The notes under the pieces: generated by a model
What the model was told of the DNA's origin: nothing
Databases searched by the model: none
What the model saw: only the letters and a program-made list of their open reading frames with translations
In this document: one piece after another, positions 49,825-58,606 of the stretch
Layout: every line of letters starts with the position of its first letter
Position numbering within the stretch: the first letter of the stretch is position 1
Position numbers and translations under genes: made by a program
Source: Seohaeicola saemankumensis
Lineage (GTDB): Bacteria > Pseudomonadota > Alphaproteobacteria > Rhodobacterales > Rhodobacteraceae
DNA length: 64,000 nucleotides
Direction: 5' to 3'
Assembly (NCBI RefSeq): GCF_020171285.1
Contig: NZ_JAIUZI010000001.1
Coordinates: 372,001 to 436,000 of the forward strand

Positions 49825-51015
49825 TCAGCCCGGCACCGCGGTGCCCGCGGTGTCGCCCAGCCCGTCCTTGCGGGCCTTGGCTGCGGCCAGCGTATCGCGC
49901 AGCTCGGCCTCCATCTTCTTTAGCTCTTCCTCGGCGGCGGCGCGGCGCGCCTTGCCCTCGTCGGCGATCTGCAGCGATTCATTGATGGTGCCGATCAGGT
50001 CGGCGTTGGCCTTCTTCACCGCCTCGATGTCAAAGACGCCGCGCTCCATCTCCTGCCGGATCATCTTGTTGCTCTCGCGCAGGTTGGCGGCATTGGCCGT
50101 CAGCAATTCGTTGGTCAGGTCATTGGCGTCGCGCACCGCCGCCGCCGCCTCGGCGCTGCGCTGGATGGTGACCGCCTGCGCCAGCTGGGTTTCCCACAGC
50201 GGCACCGTGTTCACCAGCGTCGAGTTGATCTTGGTCACCAGCGACTTGTCGTTTTCTTGCACCAGCCGGATCGACGGCAGCGACTGCATCGTCACCTGCC
50301 GCGTCAGCTTCAGGTCGTGCACCCGGCGTTCCAAATCGTCGCGCGCGGCGCGCAGGTCGCGCAGCTCTTGCGCCTTCATCACCTGCTCGCCCTCGGGCGC
50401 GGCCTGCACGGCCGCCTCGCGGGCAGGAATGTCAGTGCTGTCCAGCTCGCCCAGCTTTTCCTCGCCGGCCGCGATATAGAGCGCCAGTTCGTCGTAAAAC
50501 CCCAGCGTCTTTTCATACAGCAGATCCAGCGACTTGATGTCCTTCAGCAGCGTATGTTCATGGCCCAGCAGATCGTCGGTGATCTTGTCGATCTGGCCCT
50601 GCACATCCTCGAACCGGGCGGTGAACTTGGCCATCGGCGCGGCCCGGCCCAGCAGTTTCTCCCACCAGCTCTGCTCGCGCCGCACGTCCAGCTCCGAGAC
50701 AGAGAACCCCCGGATCGTGGTGACGATGTCGCGCAGGGAATCGCCCGCCGGGCCGACATCCTTGTTGCGCACGTCGGCCAGCATCGCCTGGCTGATTTCC
50801 TGCAGCTCGGCCTGCGCGCCCGACCCGAACGACACGATGGAATTGGTGTCACCCATGTCGATCTGGTCCATCCGGGCGCGGATTTCGGCCTGCACGGGCG
50901 CGTCGGCCTCTTGCATGACAACGATCTCGGACGAGGGTTCGGGCAGGTCGATCGCGGTGACCTCGTCAACGAGGGTCTGGCTCTCGGCGGCTTTCTGGCG
51001 GACGGTGTCGGACAT
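49825..51015 (-). CDS. TelA-like toxic anion resistance protein
   Basis: This 396-aa, almost wholly helical protein has the TelA-family core: FGSGAQAELQEISQAMLADVRNKDVGPAGDSL (about 63-94) and TMQSLPSIRLVQENDKSLVTKINSTLVNTVPLWETQLAQAVTI (about 244-286). A long C-terminal coiled coil ends it. TelA proteins are linked to tellurite, antibiotic and envelope-stress tolerance. AAGGAA lies before the ATG. It follows the XpaC-type gene by 33 bp. Confidence 0.93.
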   Translation of the reverse strand: MSDTVRQKAAESQTLVDEVTAIDLPEPSSEIVVMQEADAPVQAEIRARMDQIDMGDTNSIVSFGSGAQAELQEISQAMLADVRNKDVGPAGDSLRDIVTTIRGFSVSELDVRREQSWWEKLLGRAAPMAKFTARFEDVQGQIDKITDDLLGHEHTLLKDIKSLDLLYEKTLGFYDELALYIAAGEEKLGELDSTDIPAREAAVQAAPEGEQVMKAQELRDLRAARDDLERRVHDLKLTRQVTMQSLPSIRLVQENDKSLVTKINSTLVNTVPLWETQLAQAVTIQRSAEAAAAVRDANDLTNELLTANAANLRESNKMIRQEMERGVFDIEAVKKANADLIGTINESLQIADEGKARRAAAEEELKKMEAELRDTLAAAKARKDGLGDTAGTAVPG

Positions 51016-51048
51016 GGGACAGGGTTCCTTGTTACGAGAATTCGGGGA

Positions 51049-51951
51049 TCAGTCTAACCGGACGCCTTCGCGTTGCAGCCGGTCGCGCAGCACTTCGATT
51101 TCGACGGTCAGATCGCTGCGGTCGTCCTGCAGCATCTTGGTGGTCCGGGCGGCAAAGTTCTTTTCCAGATCGTCCAGCAGCGCCAGATAGTCGGCGCGGG
51201 CCTGCGCATCGTGGTTGCGGGCATAGATATCGGCGAACTTGATCGTCGCGTCGCGCGCCCCCATCAGGTAGACGGTCATGTACTTGCGCGCGCCGGTCAG
51301 GTCGCGCGGGTCTTCCTCGACGGTGCGGAACAGGTCGCGGGCGGTGCTCTGGAACCGCTCGACGCGGGCCTCGACCTGGCGGTCGCCGGCACGTTTGACC
51401 GCGTCGGTCATCGCACCCAGGTATTTCTCGGCCTCCTCCACCACGCGGGCCACGCGGTCCTGCTGGAAGGTGTCGATGCCTTCCATACCCTTGTCCTTCA
51501 GCGGGTCGATGCCAAAGGCGACGCCGTGCAGCACCGTGGCCGCCACGCAATACAGCGCGGGGGCCAGGATGCCGGGGTCTGTCTTGTAGGCCGCCACCGC
51601 CACCCCCAGCCCGGTCAGCAGGCTGGCCGCCATCTTGCGCGGAAAGGCCGGGCGCCGCGCCACCTTGCGCGCGTGATAGGCGCTCTCGGCGCGCAGCCCC
51701 TCGCGCAGCAGCCAGGCCGCCAGCGTCAGCATGCCGGCGGCGACCAGGCCCAGCGTCATGCCGATGGCGCCGTCGTTCAGCGAGATAAAGACCAACGGAA
51801 TGGCCGGAACGAACAGCACATTGGCCCGCGCGCCCGCCGGGTCGACGCGGGCGCCGTCATAGGCGCCGCGCGGGGCGGGGGGCTCGTCGTCGTTCTGGGG
51901 GGTGGGGGGCCGGGATGTGGGGCTGTACTTGCCGCCGAAACGCTGCGCCAT
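51049..51951 (-). CDS. XpaC-like (5-bromo-4-chloroindolyl phosphate hydrolysis family) protein
   Basis: This 300-aa protein has a short N-terminal cytosolic part, a cluster of hydrophobic helices (about 45-80 and 108-145), then a helical cytosolic domain (DRVARVVEEAEKYLGAMTDAVKRAGDRQVEARVERFQSTA, about 164-203). XpaC is commonly encoded next to TelA, as here. The molecular activity is unknown; the family name comes from a phenotype in Bacillus. It begins 3 bp after a 29-aa leader peptide gene. Confidence 0.9.
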   Translation of the reverse strand: MAQRFGGKYSPTSRPPTPQNDDEPPAPRGAYDGARVDPAGARANVLFVPAIPLVFISLNDGAIGMTLGLVAAGMLTLAAWLLREGLRAESAYHARKVARRPAFPRKMAASLLTGLGVAVAAYKTDPGILAPALYCVAATVLHGVAFGIDPLKDKGMEGIDTFQQDRVARVVEEAEKYLGAMTDAVKRAGDRQVEARVERFQSTARDLFRTVEEDPRDLTGARKYMTVYLMGARDATIKFADIYARNHDAQARADYLALLDDLEKNFAARTTKMLQDDRSDLTVEIEVLRDRLQREGVRLD

Positions 51952-52125: not shown

Positions 52126-53040
52126 TCAGCTCCGGCGCTTTGGCCGGTTGTGCGGCGTCCCGCCGCGCTTGCCGGGGCCGCCGCCGTCACTCGCGGCGCG
52201 GGTCTTGCCGGGGGCCGGGTCAAAGGGTTTCGCCGGCGGTTTTCCGGCGCCGCCGCGCGCGCCCTTGGCGGGCCGCTTGCGTTTCAGCGGCGCGGGTTCG
52301 CCATCCTCGGGCTCCAGCCCCAGCTGGTCGCGCATCACCCGGCGGCGCACCTCCTCGACCGCGCCGGGCTTCAGCTGGCCCAGCTGGAACGGGCCATAAG
52401 ACACCCGGATCAGCCGGTTGACGGTAAAGCCCAGGTCCTCCATCGCGCGGCGGATCTCGCGGTTCTTGCCCTCGCGCAGGCTGACCGTGACCCAGGCGTT
52501 GGCGCCCTGCTGGCGGTCCAGCGACACGATCATCGGCTGGAATGTCTCGCCCTCGACGGTCAACCCCTGCCGCAGCGGCGCGAAATCCTCGTCCCTGGGC
52601 CGGCCATTGATGCGCACCCGGTACTTGCGCAGCCAGCCGGTGGCGGGCAGCTCCAGCTTGCGCTTGATGCCGCCGTCATTGGTCAACAGCAGCAACCCTT
52701 CCGAGTTCAGGTCCAGCCGCCCGACGCTCATCACCCGCGGCATCTCCTCGGGCAGATCGTCGTAGATGGTGGCGCGGCCCTTTTCGTCGCGGTCGGTGGT
52801 CACCAGCCCGGTAGGCTTGTGATACAGCCACAGCCGCGCAGGTTCCGGCGCGGCGATCGGCTTGCCATCGACGGCGATCTTGTCGCGGTCGGTGACGTTC
52901 AGCGCCGGGCTGTCGATCTTGCGGCCGTTGACGGTGACGCGGCCCGCTTCGATCATGCGTTCGGCAACGCGGCGCGAGGCGACGCCGGCGCGCGACAGGA
53001 CCTTGGCGATGCGGTCGCCAGGAGGGGTGGGGGTGCTCAT
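52126..53040 (-). CDS. rluB: 23S rRNA pseudouridine synthase, RluB-like
   Basis: This 304-aa protein has an N-terminal S4 domain (DRIAKVLSRAGVASRRVAERMIEAGRVTVNGRKI), then the RsuA/RluB catalytic domain with the aspartate in VGRLDLNSEGLLLLTNDG (about 107-124) and EGKNREIRRAMEDLGF. A basic, glycine/proline-rich tail (about 240-304) is typical of alphaproteobacterial members. RluB is more likely than RluE/RsuA from length and tail. It is divergent from tadA. Confidence 0.9.
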   Translation of the reverse strand: MSTPTPPGDRIAKVLSRAGVASRRVAERMIEAGRVTVNGRKIDSPALNVTDRDKIAVDGKPIAAPEPARLWLYHKPTGLVTTDRDEKGRATIYDDLPEEMPRVMSVGRLDLNSEGLLLLTNDGGIKRKLELPATGWLRKYRVRINGRPRDEDFAPLRQGLTVEGETFQPMIVSLDRQQGANAWVTVSLREGKNREIRRAMEDLGFTVNRLIRVSYGPFQLGQLKPGAVEEVRRRVMRDQLGLEPEDGEPAPLKRKRPAKGARGGAGKPPAKPFDPAPGKTRAASDGGGPGKRGGTPHNRPKRRS

Positions 53041-53124
53041 GCACTGGCCTTATCTGTGCTCATCCCCCGGCCTTAGACGATTTCGCGCGCTTGCGAAAGC
53101 GGCAGTTGCGGGGCAGGGTGGGGC

Positions 53125-53577
53125 ATGGTGTTCAAATCCTATATGAATCAAGCGCTTGACCAAGCGCGCGCCGCAGCCCTTCGCGGCGAGGTGCCGGTCG
53201 GCGCGGTGCTGGTCGATCCCGCAGGCCAGGTGGTGGCCGCCGCCGGCAACCGCACCCGCGAACAAAGCGACCCCACCGCGCACGCCGAAATCGCGGTGAT
53301 CCGCGCCGCCTGTGCCGCCGCCGGGTCCGAACGGCTGCCGGGGCACGACCTCTATGTCACGCTGGAACCCTGCGCCATGTGCGCCGCCGCCATCGCGGCG
53401 GCCCGGATCAGGCGGCTCTACTACGGCGCCGCCGACCCCAAATCCGGCGGCGTCGCCCACGGCGCCCGGGTCTTCACCCACCCCCAGGCCCACCACGTCC
53501 CCGAAATCTACGACGGCATCGCCGCCGAAGAGGCCGAAGCGCTGCTGCGCAGGTTCTTCCGCGACCGTCGGGCCTGA
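53125..53577 (+). CDS. tadA: tRNA(adenine34) deaminase
   Basis: This 150-aa zinc deaminase converts A34 to inosine in tRNA-Arg(ACG). Zinc and proton-shuttle motifs are HAE (about 53-55) and PCAMCAAAI (about 82-90). The C-terminal RRFFRDRRA is typical. The ATG at 53125 follows GGGTGGGG; ATG at 53143 is an alternative. Essential housekeeping gene. Confidence 0.95.
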   Translation: MVFKSYMNQALDQARAAALRGEVPVGAVLVDPAGQVVAAAGNRTREQSDPTAHAEIAVIRAACAAAGSERLPGHDLYVTLEPCAMCAAAIAAARIRRLYYGAADPKSGGVAHGARVFTHPQAHHVPEIYDGIAAEEAEALLRRFFRDRRA

Positions 53578-53618
53578 CCCCTCATAGGCCACCATCCCCG
53601 CGCCCAACCCGGGCCCGG

Positions 53619-54587
53619 CTAGGCGCGCCAGTCGAGCCGGAACACCACATGTTCGCCCTCAAACCCCTTCAGGGACGCGAGGATGGGGGCGCTGAACTCG
53701 TGCTCGGGGCCGCTTCCGACCATCGCGCGGGTCACATCCGAAACCAGGATCGTGTCGGACTTGGCCAGCGCCGTTATGCGGGCGGCCTTGTTGACCACCG
53801 AGCCAAAGAAATCGTCATCCGACTGCACCACGTCGCCGGTGTGGATGCCGATGCGCAGGCTCAGGCGCGGTTCGGCCTGCTGCGCATTCACATCCTCCTG
53901 GATGGCTCGCGCGGCGGCCAATGCGGCGCGCGCCGAGGAAAACGATGACATGGTGCCGTCGCCCAGCGACTTCACGAATTGCCCGCCGTGGTCCTCGATG
54001 ATCCCGCGTAACCGGGTGAAATGGGCCGATACGATGCCGGACCAGGCACGGTCCCCCACGGCACCGGCCAAGGTCGCAGAGGCGACAAGGTCGGTGAACA
54101 TGACCGAAGCCAACCCCTCGCGTTGACCCAGCAGGAACCCCTGCTGGGCGGCACTGACCAGCGCCTGTATGGCGGTGTGTTCAACCCCTGTCGTGTCACG
54201 ATTGGGCGCCGGAATCGACGCGTGCCGCTGCACGATTTTCCAAATGTTGTCCTCTAGGACAAAAACCATCGTGGCGTGGAACAGGATCGGCTCTGGGCGG
54301 GTGTCAAAGCGGAACCTGTTGATGAAAAAGGTCCAGCCGACACCGTCCTTCTCATGCGCCTCGGCAAAGACCTCCTCGTACTCCAGCACCGTCGGAAGCT
54401 CGTCGAAATGCGCATCGACCGCCTCGCGCACCGCCGCGCCGGACCAGGTTTCACCCTCTGCCGACCCGATAAACCGAAGCGCGTCGGTCCGCGACAGGAA
54501 ATGCCGCAGCTGGCCGTCCTTGCGCTCGATCAGCGAGCGGGTCCAGCGCCGCGCGACGGCGAGCAACTCGGGCGAAGGCCGGGTCAC
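53619..54587 (-). CDS. NTF2-like/class III adenylate cyclase, paralogue 4
   Basis: This protein of about 322 aa has residues 1-130 as an NTF2/SnoaL-like domain (WKIVQRHASIPAPN at its end) and about 160-290 as a class III cyclase catalytic domain. Metal aspartates are in VMFTDLVAS and KSLGDGTMSSF; the lysine of KSLGD and the aspartate of DFFGSVVN fit ATP specificity; VVNKAARI supplies the asparagine and arginine. The GTG start at 54587 overlaps the preceding paralogue's stop (GTGA); an ATG at 54596 would overlap further. Last of four cyclases. Confidence 0.9.
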   Translation of the reverse strand: MTRPSPELLAVARRWTRSLIERKDGQLRHFLSRTDALRFIGSAEGETWSGAAVREAVDAHFDELPTVLEYEEVFAEAHEKDGVGWTFFINRFRFDTRPEPILFHATMVFVLEDNIWKIVQRHASIPAPNRDTTGVEHTAIQALVSAAQQGFLLGQREGLASVMFTDLVASATLAGAVGDRAWSGIVSAHFTRLRGIIEDHGGQFVKSLGDGTMSSFSSARAALAAARAIQEDVNAQQAEPRLSLRIGIHTGDVVQSDDDFFGSVVNKAARITALAKSDTILVSDVTRAMVGSGPEHEFSAPILASLKGFEGEHVVFRLDWRA

Positions 54588-55549
54588 TCCCGCCACTCCA
54601 GCCGGTGCACCAGGTGGTCGCCGTCCAGCCCCCTGAGGTGCAGGGTGATCGGGTTGCCGAAACGGAATCCGCGCGCGGAGCCGGCCATCAGGCGGGTTGC
54701 CTCTGACAGCCGGATTTCGTCGGGTTCGGCAATGGCGGCGACGCGGGCGGACTTGTTCACGACGGTGCCAAAGAAATCATCCCGGGTCTGGATCACGTCG
54801 CCGGTGTGAATGCCGATGCGCAGGGCCAGCGGCGGCTCGGTTTCGACGGCGGCGTTCTGCCGCTGGATCTCGATTGCCGCGTCCAGCGCCGCCCGCGCCG
54901 AGGGGAAGGACGACATGGTACCGTCGCCCAGCGATTTCACCAGTTGCCCGCCCTGCGCGGCGATCACCCCGGCGACCCGCTCGAAATGGTCGCCCACCGC
55001 CGCCGCCCAGATCCGGTCGCCCAGAGTTTCGGCAATCGCCGAGGAATTGGCGATGTCGGTGAACATGACCGAAGCCATGCCCTCGCGCTGGTCCAGCCGA
55101 AATCCTTCGCGCGCGGCTTCGACCAGGTCGTTCAGAACCGCGTGTTCGATTCCGCTGACCTTTTCGTTCGGGGTCGGGACCGAGACATGGGTCAGGACGA
55201 TCTTCCACTGGCCGTTCTCGACGGCAAGAACATGAGAAAACCGCGCGTCAAAGACCTTGCCGCTGTGCCGAAAGCGCAGCCGCGCCCGGCAATGGGCCCA
55301 GCCCGTGTCGCCGTTTTCAAAGGCTTCCAGCCCCAGTTCCTCCCAGTCGTAGACCGGGACTTCGCGCTGGTGGTCGGCGAACCCCTGCTTGAACAGACGG
55401 CCCGCCCAGTATTCGTCGTCGGCGGTGCCCTGATACCGCAAATGCTCGGACATCGAGAGCATGTTGTCGAGCGCGGCTTCGTCGCGCCGTTCCAGGGCCG
55501 CGTTCCATCGCCGGACAACGGCGACCAGTTCCGGCGAGGGCCGGATCAT
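54584..55549 (-). CDS. NTF2-like/class III adenylate cyclase, paralogue 3
   Basis: This 321-aa protein has the same two-domain plan: NTF2/SnoaL-like part ending WKIVLTHVSVPTPN, then a cyclase with VMFTDIANSSAI, KSLGDGTMSSF and DFFGTVVNKSARVA. All catalytic residues are present. The C-terminus reads GLDGDHLVHRLEWRE. The ATG at 55549 overlaps the previous paralogue's stop by ATGA; ATG at 55558 is possible. The N-terminal domain differs more from its neighbours than the cyclase does, suggesting a different ligand. Confidence 0.9.
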   Translation of the reverse strand: MIRPSPELVAVVRRWNAALERRDEAALDNMLSMSEHLRYQGTADDEYWAGRLFKQGFADHQREVPVYDWEELGLEAFENGDTGWAHCRARLRFRHSGKVFDARFSHVLAVENGQWKIVLTHVSVPTPNEKVSGIEHAVLNDLVEAAREGFRLDQREGMASVMFTDIANSSAIAETLGDRIWAAAVGDHFERVAGVIAAQGGQLVKSLGDGTMSSFPSARAALDAAIEIQRQNAAVETEPPLALRIGIHTGDVIQTRDDFFGTVVNKSARVAAIAEPDEIRLSEATRLMAGSARGFRFGNPITLHLRGLDGDHLVHRLEWRE

Positions 55550-56511
55550 GGCCGCCACTCCAGCCGGTGGATCAGGTGATCGCCGTCCAGCCCCTTCAGA
55601 GGCGCGATCAGCGGGTCGCCAAAGGCGAATTCCGGGGCGTTTCCGACCATCAGGCGGGTTTCGTCCGATACCCGCGTCTCTCCCGGGGCGGCCTGCTCGG
55701 CGATGCGGGCAGCCTTGTTCACCACCGTGCCGAAAAAGTCATCGCCGCTTGCGACCACTTCGCCGGTGTGAATACCGATGCGGACCTGCAATCGCGGTTC
55801 TTGCGTGCTGGCATCCAGCCGGGACTGGATCCGCATGGCCGCGCGCATGGCCGCCAGCGCCGAGGTAAAGGATGACATCGTGCCGTCGCCCAGCGATTTC
55901 ACAAGCGTGCCTCCGGTCTCTTCGACGGCGGCGCGGATCATCGAAAAATGGTCGCCGATCTGCACCGCCCAGCGTTGGTCGCCGACCGCAGCGGCGATCG
56001 CCGACGACCCGCACACGTCGGTGAACATCACCGTCGCGATCCCGGATTTGCCCTCCATGGTGCCCTCTGCCCGGGCCGCATCCATCAGCGCGTTCATCGC
56101 GGTGTGTTTCGCCCCGTGCAAGGCGCTGTTTGGCACCGGCAAAGACGCATGGCGGTGCACGATCTTCCAGTTGCCGTCGATCAGGGCAAAAACCAGCGAC
56201 GTGCGGAACACGACAGGCTCCGGGCGGCCATCGACGTGCATCTGCCTGCAATAGAACGCCCACCCGGACTCGCCGCATTCAAAGGCCTGGGTCATGATCT
56301 CTTCGGCCTGAAACGCCGGCGCTTCGCGGAAATGCGCCTCGAGACCATCGCGCACCTGCCGACCGGTCCACAATTCGTCGGGTGCCGTGCCGATAAAGCT
56401 GACATGCTCCGACCCCGTCACCAGATTGCGCAGGGTCGCCCCGTCGCGGGCTTCGACCGCCTTGAAAAACCGCCGCGCGATCGCGGCCAGTTCCGGCGAC
56501 GGCCGGATCAT
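55546..56511 (-). CDS. NTF2-like/class III adenylate cyclase, paralogue 2
   Basis: This 321-aa protein has an N-terminal NTF2/SnoaL-like domain (WKIVHRHASLPVPN) and a cyclase with VMFTDVCGSSAI, KSLGDGTMSSF and DFFGTVVNKAARIA. All catalytic residues are conserved. The ATG at 56511 overlaps the upstream paralogue's stop (ATGA), so the longer frame to 56931 is rejected. No membrane segment or signal is visible; it should be cytosolic. Confidence 0.9.
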   Translation of the reverse strand: MIRPSPELAAIARRFFKAVEARDGATLRNLVTGSEHVSFIGTAPDELWTGRQVRDGLEAHFREAPAFQAEEIMTQAFECGESGWAFYCRQMHVDGRPEPVVFRTSLVFALIDGNWKIVHRHASLPVPNSALHGAKHTAMNALMDAARAEGTMEGKSGIATVMFTDVCGSSAIAAAVGDQRWAVQIGDHFSMIRAAVEETGGTLVKSLGDGTMSSFTSALAAMRAAMRIQSRLDASTQEPRLQVRIGIHTGEVVASGDDFFGTVVNKAARIAEQAAPGETRVSDETRLMVGNAPEFAFGDPLIAPLKGLDGDHLIHRLEWRP

Positions 56512-57476
56512 GGCCGCCACTCCAGCCGGTGAATCAGGTGCTCGCCCTCGAACCCTTTCAGCGGCACCCGGCGCGGGTCCGCAAAAACTAGCCCCGCCGC
56601 ATCCGCCACTATCTCCCGCGTCGCCTCCGACAGCCGGATCTCGGCCGGTGCTGCCAGCGCCGCGATGCGCGCCGCCTTGTTGACCACGCTGCCAAAGAAA
56701 TCGGCGTCGGTCTGCACCACGTCGCCGGAATGGATGCCCACCCGCAGGGCAATCGCCGGCCCGTCCGTGCCCTCTCCGGCGCGCAGGATATCGCGCGCCG
56801 CGCTCAGCGCCCGCGCCGGGTCGGCAAAGCTCGACATGGTGCCATCGCCCAGCGACTTCACGAACTGCCCGCCTGCGCCCTCGATGATCTCGCGCAGGGC
56901 GGCGAAATGCCGGGCCACCTCCGCCGACCACAGCCGGTCACCCATCACCTCGGCCAGCCGCGAAGAGTTGACGATATCGGTGAACATGACCGAGGCGAAC
57001 CCCTCGCGCTGGTTCAACGCAAAACCCTCGCGGGCGGCGGCGACCAGATCGGCGATGGCATTCTGTTCGGTCCGGGTCATCTCCATGGTGGCAAGCGGCA
57101 CCGACCCGTGGCGGTGCACGATCTTCCAGGCGCCATCCTCCAGCGTAAAGATCAGCGTCGTGCGCACGCTGAACTGCCGGTCCGGCTGGTTGGTGAAGAT
57201 CAGCTCGTGGTTCAGGCAGGCCCATCCGGTCTCGCCGTTCTCCCAGGCCTCGGCAAAGGTCTCCTCGTGCTTGAGCAGCGCCGGTATCACCCCGAAGAAA
57301 CCCGCGACCCCCTCGCGCACCGCCTTGCCGGTCCACAGCTCGCCCTCGTCGGTGCCGATGAATTGCAGGTGGTCCTGCTCGCTCATCAGGTTGCGTAGAT
57401 CGTTGCCGCGCCGGTTCGGGATCGCGTCGATCCAGCGCCGCGCGACGGCCAGCAGTTCCGGCGACGGCCGGGTCAT
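56508..57476 (-). CDS. NTF2-like/class III adenylate cyclase, paralogue 1 (first of operon)
   Basis: This 322-aa protein has an NTF2/SnoaL-like domain at 1-130 (WKIVHRHGSVPLAT) and a cyclase at about 160-290: D167 in VMFTDIVNSSRL, K207 and D211 in KSLGDGTMSSF, D259 in DFFGSVVN, and N266 and R270 in VVNKAARIA. K207 with D259 is the adenine-specifying pair of class IIIa-type enzymes, so cAMP is the likely product. GGGAG lies about 10 bases before the ATG. Upstream are two direct repeats of GTACAAAACGG. The four genes overlap stop-to-start in one operon. Confidence 0.92.
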   Translation of the reverse strand: MTRPSPELLAVARRWIDAIPNRRGNDLRNLMSEQDHLQFIGTDEGELWTGKAVREGVAGFFGVIPALLKHEETFAEAWENGETGWACLNHELIFTNQPDRQFSVRTTLIFTLEDGAWKIVHRHGSVPLATMEMTRTEQNAIADLVAAAREGFALNQREGFASVMFTDIVNSSRLAEVMGDRLWSAEVARHFAALREIIEGAGGQFVKSLGDGTMSSFADPARALSAARDILRAGEGTDGPAIALRVGIHSGDVVQTDADFFGSVVNKAARIAALAAPAEIRLSEATREIVADAAGLVFADPRRVPLKGFEGEHLIHRLEWRP

Positions 57477-57553
57477 CGCCGGCGCTCCCGCCGCGCGGGC
57501 GTGACCCAGGCGGCGTTAACCCTTTGTTCGCGCCCTGTTCCCGGAAAACTTTT

Positions 57554-57596
57554 GTACAAAACGGAAAATGCCGCCGCCCGCACCGGTACAAAACGG
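57554..57596. promoter_or_regulatory. Two direct repeats GTACAAAACGG upstream of the cyclase operon
   Basis: Exact 11-bp copies at 57554-57564 and 57586-57596 are 32 bp apart (about three helical turns), in the 152-bp gap between the metal-dependent hydrolase and the first cyclase. The spacing suggests cooperative binding of a regulator on one DNA face. Confidence 0.6.
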
Positions 57597-57628
57597 TCAA
57601 AACCGGGGCAGGGCGGCGGCGGCATGGG

Positions 57629-58321
57629 TCAGACCTCGATCGCGGTCATGATCTGCGGTTCGATCACATCCACCCCCGGCAGCGCGTCGATCAGCTCCTG
57701 CGCCGACTGCTCCAGGATCGGGAAGGTCTTGTAATGCGCCGGGATCAGCGTCTTGAAGTTGAAGTATCGTTTGGCGGCATAGGCGGCGCCCTTCATGTCC
57801 ATGGTGAAATGGCCGCCGGCGCTCAGAATCCCTACATCTGGTTTGTAATAGTCGCCCATCCACTCCATATCGGCCATGATGTCGGTATCGCCGCTGGCAT
57901 AGAGCGTCTTGCCCTCGGCCATGATCATGAACCCCGCCTCCGATCCGGCGGCGCGCGGCCCCTCGGGCGAGCCAAAGGTCGAGGAATGCACCGCGTTCAC
58001 CATCGACACCCGCGCGCCGCCCAGATCGACAGTGCCGCCCTTGTTGAATCCGATGGTCTCGATCCCCTCCTTTTCGGCCCAGTGGGACATCACGTCATAC
58101 TGCCCAACCACCGGCACACCCAGCTCCTTGGACAACCGCACCGCATCCGCCGAATGGTCAAAATGTGCATGAGTTACAAGGATTTGCGTGGCGCCTTCGA
58201 TGGCTTCCGCGTGCCGGTCCTCGGGCAGAACCGGGTTGCCCGTCAGCCAGGGGTCCAAGAGCAGAACGAGATTTCCGGTTTCGATGCGGAACGATCCGTG
58301 GCCAAGCCAGATGAGTTTCAT
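57629..58321 (-). CDS. Metal-dependent hydrolase, UPF0173 family (metallo-beta-lactamase fold)
   Basis: This 230-aa protein has an N-terminal KLIWLGHGSFRI, the metal motif THAHFDHSADA (HxHxDH, about 50-60), GDTDI near 147 and PAHYKTFP near 202. These match UPF0173/RomA-like hydrolases whose substrates are mostly unknown. GGGAGACATTC precedes the ATG at 58321; the frame runs on to 58519 without a good start. It lies upstream of the cyclase operon on the same strand, separated by the repeat-bearing gap. Confidence 0.92.
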   Translation of the reverse strand: MKLIWLGHGSFRIETGNLVLLLDPWLTGNPVLPEDRHAEAIEGATQILVTHAHFDHSADAVRLSKELGVPVVGQYDVMSHWAEKEGIETIGFNKGGTVDLGGARVSMVNAVHSSTFGSPEGPRAAGSEAGFMIMAEGKTLYASGDTDIMADMEWMGDYYKPDVGILSAGGHFTMDMKGAAYAAKRYFNFKTLIPAHYKTFPILEQSAQELIDALPGVDVIEPQIMTAIEV

Positions 58322-58606
58322 GAATGTCTCCCAGTTTTTGCTTCCGCAGCCTAGCATGGCGCGCCCGCGATGCCATAGCAGAGTCGCGCCGCCCGACCCG
58401 CCGGCAGCGGGCCGAACCGGCTGCCCCGGCAGGGCGCGACCTAGTGGAACCCGCCCCGCAGGATTGTGCATCTGGGCCTTGAGATGGTTTGCATGATGTT
58501 GATAAAAAACACTTTTCAAGCCTTTCTTGCCGAGGGAGACACCGGCGATGGACGCGGGCTCTCCGACCCGTTAACTCTTGAACGGAAACAGGAGAGGAGT
58601 GGCGCA

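Follow-up and report, generated by a model that had tools for sequence, protein, structure and literature searches.

Tandem genes for class III cyclases with N-terminal NTF2-like domains in Seohaeicola saemankumensis: a candidate panel of soluble receptor cyclases

Results

Four overlapping genes encode NTF2-like/cyclase fusions

A 64,000-nucleotide stretch of the Seohaeicola saemankumensis genome (contig NZ_JAIUZI010000001.1, positions 372,001 to 436,000; hereafter the window) carries four head-to-tail genes on its minus strand, A to D (57476-53619), each of which encodes an N-terminal NTF2-like (SnoaL_3) domain joined by a linker of ~28 residues to a class III nucleotide cyclase domain. The three junctions are 4-nucleotide overlaps (ATGA, ATGA and GTGA). 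The genes and their domains, numbered from the first letter of the window, are:

56508..57476, minus: gene A, SnoaL_3 and class III cyclase, 322 residues, ATG start; first in the array, clade A
57093..57449, minus: NTF2-like domain of A, residues 10-128 (Pfam and predicted fold)
56538..57008, minus: cyclase domain of A, residues 157-313 (Pfam and predicted fold)
55546..56511, minus: gene B, SnoaL_3 and class III cyclase, 321 residues, ATG start; clade B
56131..56484, minus: NTF2-like domain of B, residues 10-127 (Pfam)
55615..56037, minus: cyclase domain of B, residues 159-299 (Pfam)
54584..55549, minus: gene C, SnoaL_3 and class III cyclase, 321 residues, ATG start; clade C
55172..55522, minus: NTF2-like domain of C, residues 10-126 (Pfam)
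54629..55090, minus: cyclase domain of C, residues 154-307 (Pfam)
53619..54587, minus: gene D, SnoaL_3 and class III cyclase, 322 residues, GTG start; last in the array, clade D
54204..54560, minus: NTF2-like domain of D, residues 10-128 (Pfam)
53688..54116, minus: cyclase domain of D, residues 158-300 (Pfam)

A first-pass annotation had described four paralogous genes of 321-322 residues with ATGA/GTGA junctions, each with an NTF2/SnoaL-like domain ending in WKIV-x-x-H and a cyclase with intact catalytic residues. This description is borne out in full. The coordinates and translations agree, and the WKIVxxH motif and six catalytic residues occur in 4/4 proteins. SnoaL_3 is matched above the Pfam cut-off in A-D (E-values of 1.2e-15, 2.3e-20, 1.6e-12 and 4.9e-13; 48.3-73.6 bits versus a cut-off of 22), as is Guanylate_cyc (1.1e-11, 2.9e-14, 5.2e-13 and 8.3e-13). 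B, C and D are 47%, 50% and 53% identical to A over the whole protein; pairwise identities among the four are 35-47% for the N-terminal domains (N-domains) and 51-59% for the catalytic domains.

The host genome (5.1 Mb, 44 contigs) contains 30 class III cyclase matches. Only A-D reach E <= 1e-30 against the full-length model and, outside the array, no two of the 30 lie less than 5 kb apart. Since A-D are the sole full-length-model matches among the 30, the array is not a chance grouping. The same 5.1 Mb also encode 10 cyclic nucleotide monophosphate (cNMP)-binding domains above cut-off beside the 30 cyclase matches, which suggests a cell heavily wired for cyclic AMP (cAMP).

The N-terminal domain is predicted to adopt an NTF2-like fold

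AlphaFold modelling of whole protein A gave a mean predicted local distance difference test score (pLDDT) of 91.3 and a predicted template modelling score (pTM) of 0.56, with low confidence mainly around the linker (~131-160). Given this pTM, the model does not fix the relative placement of the two domains. The modelled catalytic domain matches the adenylyl cyclase Ma1120 (Z-score 27.9, root mean square deviation 1.4, 164 aligned residues, 35% identity), and comparison with Ma1120 and Rv1900c gives 34-37% identity and Z-scores of 25.7-27.9 over 157-165 residues.

Because a VIA search with the whole-A model returned, among the matches listed, cyclase-domain proteins only, the N-domain was predicted alone (pLDDT 96.3, pTM 0.88). 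VIA matches to this model include AtzH with a Z-score of 15.7, 3bb9, which is ketosteroid-isomerase-like, with 15.2, and the CaMKII hub with 14.4. The 50 VIA-align matches listed (Z-scores of 13.6-15.7 over 107-132 residues) comprise NTF2-like proteins, AtzH, ketosteroid-isomerase-like proteins, NTF2, designed binders of the fold and CaMKII hubs. All Foldseek and VIA matches listed are NTF2-like by title or fold label; some are titled 'cystatin-like', which we take to be the fold class containing NTF2. A profile of 80 N-domains matches the putative CaMKII-association-domain protein 3h51 (E 5.5e-5). Pfam CaMKII_AD itself is matched by 2/80 aligned members, and 80/80 match SnoaL_3 and Guanylate_cyc, each at E <= 0.001. 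The N-domain is thus predicted to have a cone-shaped α+β fold of the NTF2-like kind, in line with the NTF2/SnoaL-like domain of the first-pass annotation.

The catalytic residues are conserved throughout the family

A scan of genome contigs yielded 74 loci (denoted by L numbers), whose open reading frames gave 106 proteins scoring above 250 bits, the window's own included. In the numbering of A, Asp167 and Asp211, Lys207 and Asp259, and Asn266 and Arg270 are present in A-D; by analogy with the family we take these pairs to be metal-binding, base-specifying and transition-state residues, respectively. All six are intact in 105/106 proteins. The two metal Asp residues, the transition-state Asn and Arg and the substrate Lys are found in 106/106, and the substrate Asp in 105/106; the sole copy with Glu at position 259 is the third array gene of one locus (L012:7960-8924), which is split between frames. 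To remove bias from the search peptides, we also considered array siblings separately: 40 of the 41 that do not overlap a search match are intact, the exception being the same L012 gene, as are 16/16 of those that contain neither search peptide. A third substrate place, identified by spacing, holds Ala in 101/106 proteins, a further likeness to Ma1120, and Ser in 5.

The mycobacterial cyclases Ma1120 and Rv1900c, which we take to be of the class IIIc type, are alike in catalytic domain, Ma1120 with the same Lys/Asp substrate pair, and their N-terminal parts differ from the NTF2-like domain; we know of no arrays of cyclases of this type. In Ma1120 the substrate-specifying pair is Lys101/Asp157 (PMC4215837). 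Window-type proteins very probably make cAMP.

The same Lys and Asp bear on a possible role as anti-phage Pycsar-like cyclases, to which weak PADLOC matches to PycC (best E 4e-11) might point. We consider such a role extremely improbable: the PycC matches are confined to the cyclase part, the adenine-specifying Lys and Asp are present, and 0/10 neighbouring window genes match the PADLOC effector model, a tadA-like deaminase giving a weak partial match to dCTPase. With weak PycC matches and no effector-model match in the 10 neighbouring genes, the array was not classed as a Pycsar system.

Arrays recur in relatives with variable copy number

A gene longer than 280 residues is present at 59 loci, singly at 45 and in arrays of 2-5 at the other 14. 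One flank is shorter than 1 kb in 2 of the 45, and several strains are represented by 2-3 loci. With the window, the arrays total 15. Redundant close strains were kept in all counts, and because genome scans score 4-5 candidates per genome, copy counts are lower bounds. In a sample of the same family (394 genomes, one per genus, denoted by G numbers), 14 genomes carry the protein and 5 have neighbouring copies (G000, the window's own, and G030, G072, G136 and G388), some of which may be the same strains as named loci. A single match (partial in G276) was seen in 8 of these 14, for each of which 5 candidates were scored; the protein can thus stand alone in a genome. A sample of the class (385 genomes) contained 2 positive genomes, that of the window and one other, also from this family, and the 74 loci include a few rhizobial and other metagenome members. 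Taken together, these samples place the fusion protein mainly in roseobacters.

The arrays at 14 further loci mean that this layout is not confined to one strain, which the first-pass annotation had named as a refutation. Conservation of the tandem copy number had been proposed there as a check; arrays recur in relatives, and the number itself is not fixed (1-5). In searches of open-licence papers, no title or opening of an abstract among those listed described NTF2-like/SnoaL cyclases or ordered arrays of them.

Array members belong to old clades that keep their order

In a tree of 103 proteins (three short ones, L012_8196, L054_7337 and L067_6920, were omitted from all trees), about 10 old clades can be recognized. 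The four window copies fall into four of these, each common to other genera, and the label 'window' needs 4 changes on the tree, the maximum for four rows. On this phylogeny the window copies are related paralogues, as first thought, and are not recent duplicates. We chose the clade limits on the full-length tree; 15/103 rows, which belong to none of the named clades, do not enter the clade means or the order count. The arrays, in the direction of transcription, are:

Window: A-B-C-D
L009: alpha-A-E
L010: beta-A-C
L012: ?-A-(disrupted gene)-E
L015 and L021: alpha-beta-A-E
L017 and L020: alpha-alpha2-beta-A-E
L022: alpha-A-D-E
L023: alpha-A-beta-B-C
L024: alpha-A-beta-?-C
L025: alpha-A-B-C
L027: F-D-E
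L029: beta-D-E-F
L050: F-?

No named clade repeats within an array (0 observed versus a shuffled mean of 8.4; 0/20,000 shuffles as low), and among pair types that occur two or more times order agrees in 72/76 observations, the exceptions being beta versus A (2), F versus D (1) and F versus E (1). As the arrays are related by descent, these counts should not be read as independent events. In L015 the beta gene is far from that of L017 and L020 (N-domain nonsynonymous divergence, dN, ~0.66), although the three loci have closely orthologous alpha, A and E genes; the L015 beta gene looks like a replacement at one slot. At the site, L054:6956-7960, L067:6887-7525, L072 and L073 have cyclase genes that are broken, shortened or reduced to remnants, which are signs of loss.

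The two halves of the protein may have different histories

Mean identity within versus between clades is 0.68 versus 0.37 for the N-domain, 0.645 versus 0.52 for the catalytic domain and 0.66 versus 0.34 for the linker, and linker identity between array siblings is 0.32. A tree of the N-domain (123 columns) keeps 10/10 clades whole and requires 9 clade changes, whereas a tree of the catalytic domain (165 columns) keeps 1/10 and requires 15. Among close orthologues, the ratio of nonsynonymous to synonymous substitution rates (dN/dS) of the N-domain is 0.06-0.18 in 30/33 pairs (highest 0.48), versus 0.06-0.39 for the catalytic domain, and it is the lower of the two in 24/33 pairs, which share sequences and are therefore non-independent. 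The N-domains, as conserved as the catalytic domains within clades and with the lower dN/dS in most pairs, look like discrete maintained types under purifying selection. The earlier view that they have diverged more than the catalytic domains holds between siblings; within full-length-tree clades (0.68 versus 0.645) they are not simply fast-evolving.

These values bear on the alternative that the arrays reflect gene dosage or selfish duplication, with redundant cyclases whose N-domains drift neutrally. A copy number of 1-5 and the broken genes and remnants in L054, L067, L072 and L073 would fit such a process, which we nonetheless regard as very unlikely because the members are ancient, named clades never repeat and the N-domains are under purifying selection within clades.

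Two adjacent cyclase genes at another locus (L050:6039-7960) are 98% identical in DNA over codons 205-264, against 37-85% in other 20-codon blocks, and their N-domains are 35% identical. On this comparison, the tract is a recent gene conversion of the catalytic core only. No 20-codon block of at least 88% identity was found between siblings of the other arrays, so general homogenisation is not supported.

Clade-specific positions of the N-domain include candidate ligand contacts

Clade is best told from N-domain positions 87, 70, 124, 16, 61, 88, 24, 28, 122 and 90, and Glu7, Arg14, Gly41, Glu46, Trp117 and Ser125 are invariant. HMMER pairs WQIVHFHRSG of the CaMKII hub with WKIVHRHGS of the N-domains (E 0.21); counted from this alignment, CaMKII Arg469 corresponds to position 124, Arg453 to 108 and Arg433, one residue beyond the alignment, to 87. 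All three arginines are in contact with the ligand of the hub, and isozymes differ at Arg469 (PMC12148480). Of the 124 N-domain positions, 87 ranks 1st in clade information, 124 3rd and 108 67th; the trio exceeds random trios (P 0.005, or 0.017 with 88 replacing 87). The hub resembles the N-domain in its NTF2-like fold (Z-score ~14), and Arg469 of its small-molecule pocket aligns with position 124. It differs in being C-terminal, in forming larger rings and in having a kinase output, the domain here being N-terminal with a cyclase output.

Overlapping junctions and possible mixed dimers

Over the 15 arrays, 33/43 junctions are 4-nucleotide overlaps and 37/43 lie within 30 nucleotides. The conserved ending LEW is written CTGGAGTGG in 22/37 close junctions, which places GGAG just ahead of the next start. 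A GGAG, GAGG or AGGA motif occurs near the gene end in 28/37 genes with a cyclase directly behind, versus 14/60 terminal or single genes (Fisher P 6e-7); gene D, last in the window, ends in LDWR and has no GGAG-type motif.

Such junctions would suit co-translational assembly of mixed cyclase dimers from overlapping genes, in which the NTF2-like parts would serve, much as the CaMKII hub does, for scaffolding or for combinatorial assembly. The 4-nucleotide overlaps (33/43) and the ribosome-site-like motif (28/37 internal versus 14/60) agree with this, as do the likeness of the N-domain to the CaMKII hub (CaMKII_AD being matched by 2/80 members), the L050 conversion, which keeps catalytic halves alike, and the occurrence of single genes at 2-3 places in several strains (L032, L035 and L041 are one strain), which could still pair. 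Obligate heterodimers often let one site decay. Here no half-site has been lost in array members (six residues intact in 105/106), the protein can occur alone (a single match in 8/14 positive family-sample genomes), and linkers differ between siblings (0.32) and are kept within clades (0.66). We consider hetero-oligomers unlikely; homodimers are preferred over mixed dimers, given that the protein can occur alone and that no half-site has decayed.

A panel of receptor cyclases as the favoured interpretation

With modest confidence, we favour the view that the array is a modular panel of adenylate cyclases that act as soluble receptors, encoded as one operon at a fixed site, with a distinct pocket per clade. 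In the following scheme the making of cAMP, the binding of ligands and their distinctness, the direction of the signal and homodimers are inferred. Each protein would form a dimer, most likely of its own kind, in which two class III catalytic domains convert ATP to cAMP. A small molecule would sit in the cone-shaped pocket of the NTF2-like domain of each subunit, and this ligand would alter the activity of the dimer via the ~28-residue linker. Each clade would keep its own pocket, so that the genes of an array answer different molecules. All members would feed a single cAMP pool, read by the cNMP-binding proteins of the cell, and lineages would gain, lose and replace panel members, keeping one per kind and their order. 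Regulation of the cyclase by the NTF2-like part is probable, and for the ligands of the clades we lean towards their being distinct. The first-pass interpretation is partly supported, as regards fold, intact cyclases, divergence of sibling N-domains and conservation; the N-domains are not simply fast-evolving, and the copy number is not fixed.

Several observations weigh against this interpretation. The clades were drawn on the full-length tree, N-domain included, and when clusters are defined from the catalytic domain alone, N-domain identity within them (0.46-0.51) is below that of the catalytic domain (0.57-0.61). No starred branch of the catalytic tree forces any clade apart (least forced = 1 each), so shuffling of catalytic halves is not firmly supported. 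N-domain dN/dS is above that of the catalytic domain in 9/33 pairs, including all 3 alpha pairs of L023-L025. Vertical inheritance of a single ancestral array accounts for the order without selection. For the pocket, the CaMKII alignment is weak (E 0.21) with Arg433 one residue outside it, the CaMKII residue numbers were counted from what we presume to be the C-terminus, position 108 is ordinary in clade information, and positions 24 and 28 lie in a helix that need not line the pocket. NTF2-like domains also serve as pure oligomerisation domains or enzymes.

Sensor-fused class III cyclases, neighbouring cyclase paralogues and SnoaL-like regulatory domains on sigma factors are already known. 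Rv1319c-Rv1320c of M. tuberculosis are paralogous class III cyclases in one operon (PMC3961136). That operon is alike in its neighbouring paralogues and has two genes versus up to five here. Its products have membrane and HAMP parts, unlike the soluble NTF2-like domain, and we know of no conserved order across genera. In Sinorhizobium meliloti, the sensor-domain class III cyclases CyaD1, CyaD2 and CyaK feed the cAMP receptor Clr (PMC13001267); these have CHASE2 extracellular sensors and are not described there as forming a collinear overlapping array. ECF41 and ECF56 sigma factors carry a SnoaL_2 domain fused to and controlling the regulator (PMC7730460). Their output is transcription and the SnoaL_2 domain is C-terminal, whereas the output here is a cyclase and the domain is an N-terminal SnoaL_3.

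More tentatively, the locus may be a 'receptor cassette': an ordered, one-of-each repertoire of about 10 NTF2-pocket adenylate cyclases, held as lineage-specific subsets, with catalytic halves exchangeable by conversion and pockets that stay distinct. If so, a set of cytosolic chemical senses would be written as gene order at one site, and the locus would show a bacterium editing its chemical senses via cassette exchange. The input signals of most class III cyclases in bacteria have yet to be identified; NTF2-like domains would, if the interpretation is right, constitute a class of cyclase sensor. About 10 candidate receptor clades with similar catalytic halves lend themselves to clade-by-clade ligand screening, with pocket residues predictable beforehand.

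The chromosomal site and its neighbours

The array is bordered in the window by two genes:

57632..58315, minus: UPF0173 metal-dependent hydrolase (metallo-beta-lactamase fold), upstream border of the site
53125..53577, plus: tadA-like deaminase (Pfam deaminase families), convergent border; the name tadA is our presumption

A UPF0173 gene lies upstream in 31/59 loci, including all 14 arrays, as it does in the window, and tadA follows in 30 of these 31, the L025 stretch ending before it. The other 28 loci are not at this site. Their largest recurrent neighbour cluster (8 loci) is another cyclase by sequence, and no shared pathway stood out among their neighbours as compared by sequence. We also fetched 18 cyclase-free stretches. 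In 8 of these (L087, L088, L089, L092, L093, L095, L096 and L101) the UPF0173, tadA and pseudouridine-synthase genes are 61-738 nucleotides apart with no cyclase match; in L103, UPF0173 and tadA are ~2.2 kb apart, and no tadA gene is seen within the stretch in 9/18. With these three genes close together in the 8 stretches, the cyclases look as if they were inserted into an old neighbourhood. UPF0173 was considered as a partner cAMP phosphodiesterase and dropped, since it is found at the same site without cyclases in 8/18 stretches.

In several arrays (e.g., L009, L010 and L023) the first cyclase match begins ~12-26 nucleotides past the UPF0173 match, and with gaps of this size the two may share a transcript. 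The window has a wider gap here, of 152 nucleotides, between UPF0173 and gene A; it holds a strong hairpin, so this array may have its own promoter. The hairpin (within 57470-57640) is GC-rich and followed by ATTTTCC; it is terminator-like by eye, absent from a simple scan, and the 171-nucleotide stretch has a shuffle z-score of -2.1. A sigma-70 scan found no promoter, terminator-like matches were no more numerous than in shuffles, and Rfam returned nothing at gathering score over 53000-58600.

In 13/31 site loci the cyclases have an ectoine-hydrolase-like M24 gene next to them (L041:5814-6986, L009, L012, L020, L022-L025, L044-L046, L061 and L063). It represents a distinct subfamily, with 69-82% identity to the query in 6/394 genomes and <=56% among the other matches listed. 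The copies of L041, L023 and L063 score 501-535 bits (L041 534.6) against a DoeA cut-off of 613 and are therefore not called DoeA. Four of the six subfamily genomes have no cyclase match (L105-L108). In 4/4 the M24 gene is on the tadA side, and in 3 it is also beside UPF0173, the matches overlapping in L107; L105 shows the tadA side only. This weakens M24 as a clue to the ligand, and as both genes occur at the site without cyclases too, UPF0173 and M24 are weak clues. The two may form a two-hydrolase operon.

The M24 gene also raises the alternative that the N-domain is itself an enzyme, of isomerase or hydrolase type, in a UPF0173/M24 pathway whose flux the cyclase reports. NTF2-like enzymes exist, and M24 adjoins the cyclases in 13/31 site loci; we would give this only a slight chance, given that M24 is on the tadA side in 4/4 cyclase-free genomes that have it and that UPF0173 also occurs without a cyclase.

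A TelA (toxic anion resistance) gene and a Halogen_Hydrol-family gene lie near the array (49825-51951), and in many site loci relatives of both are found close to the cyclases. Between the array and tadA, close Ruegeria strains carry an agmatine-deiminase-like gene (L020:10559-11653) or an AAA/AbiEii-like gene (L017:9004-10827). As these are different and unrelated, the site may attract insertions beyond cyclases.

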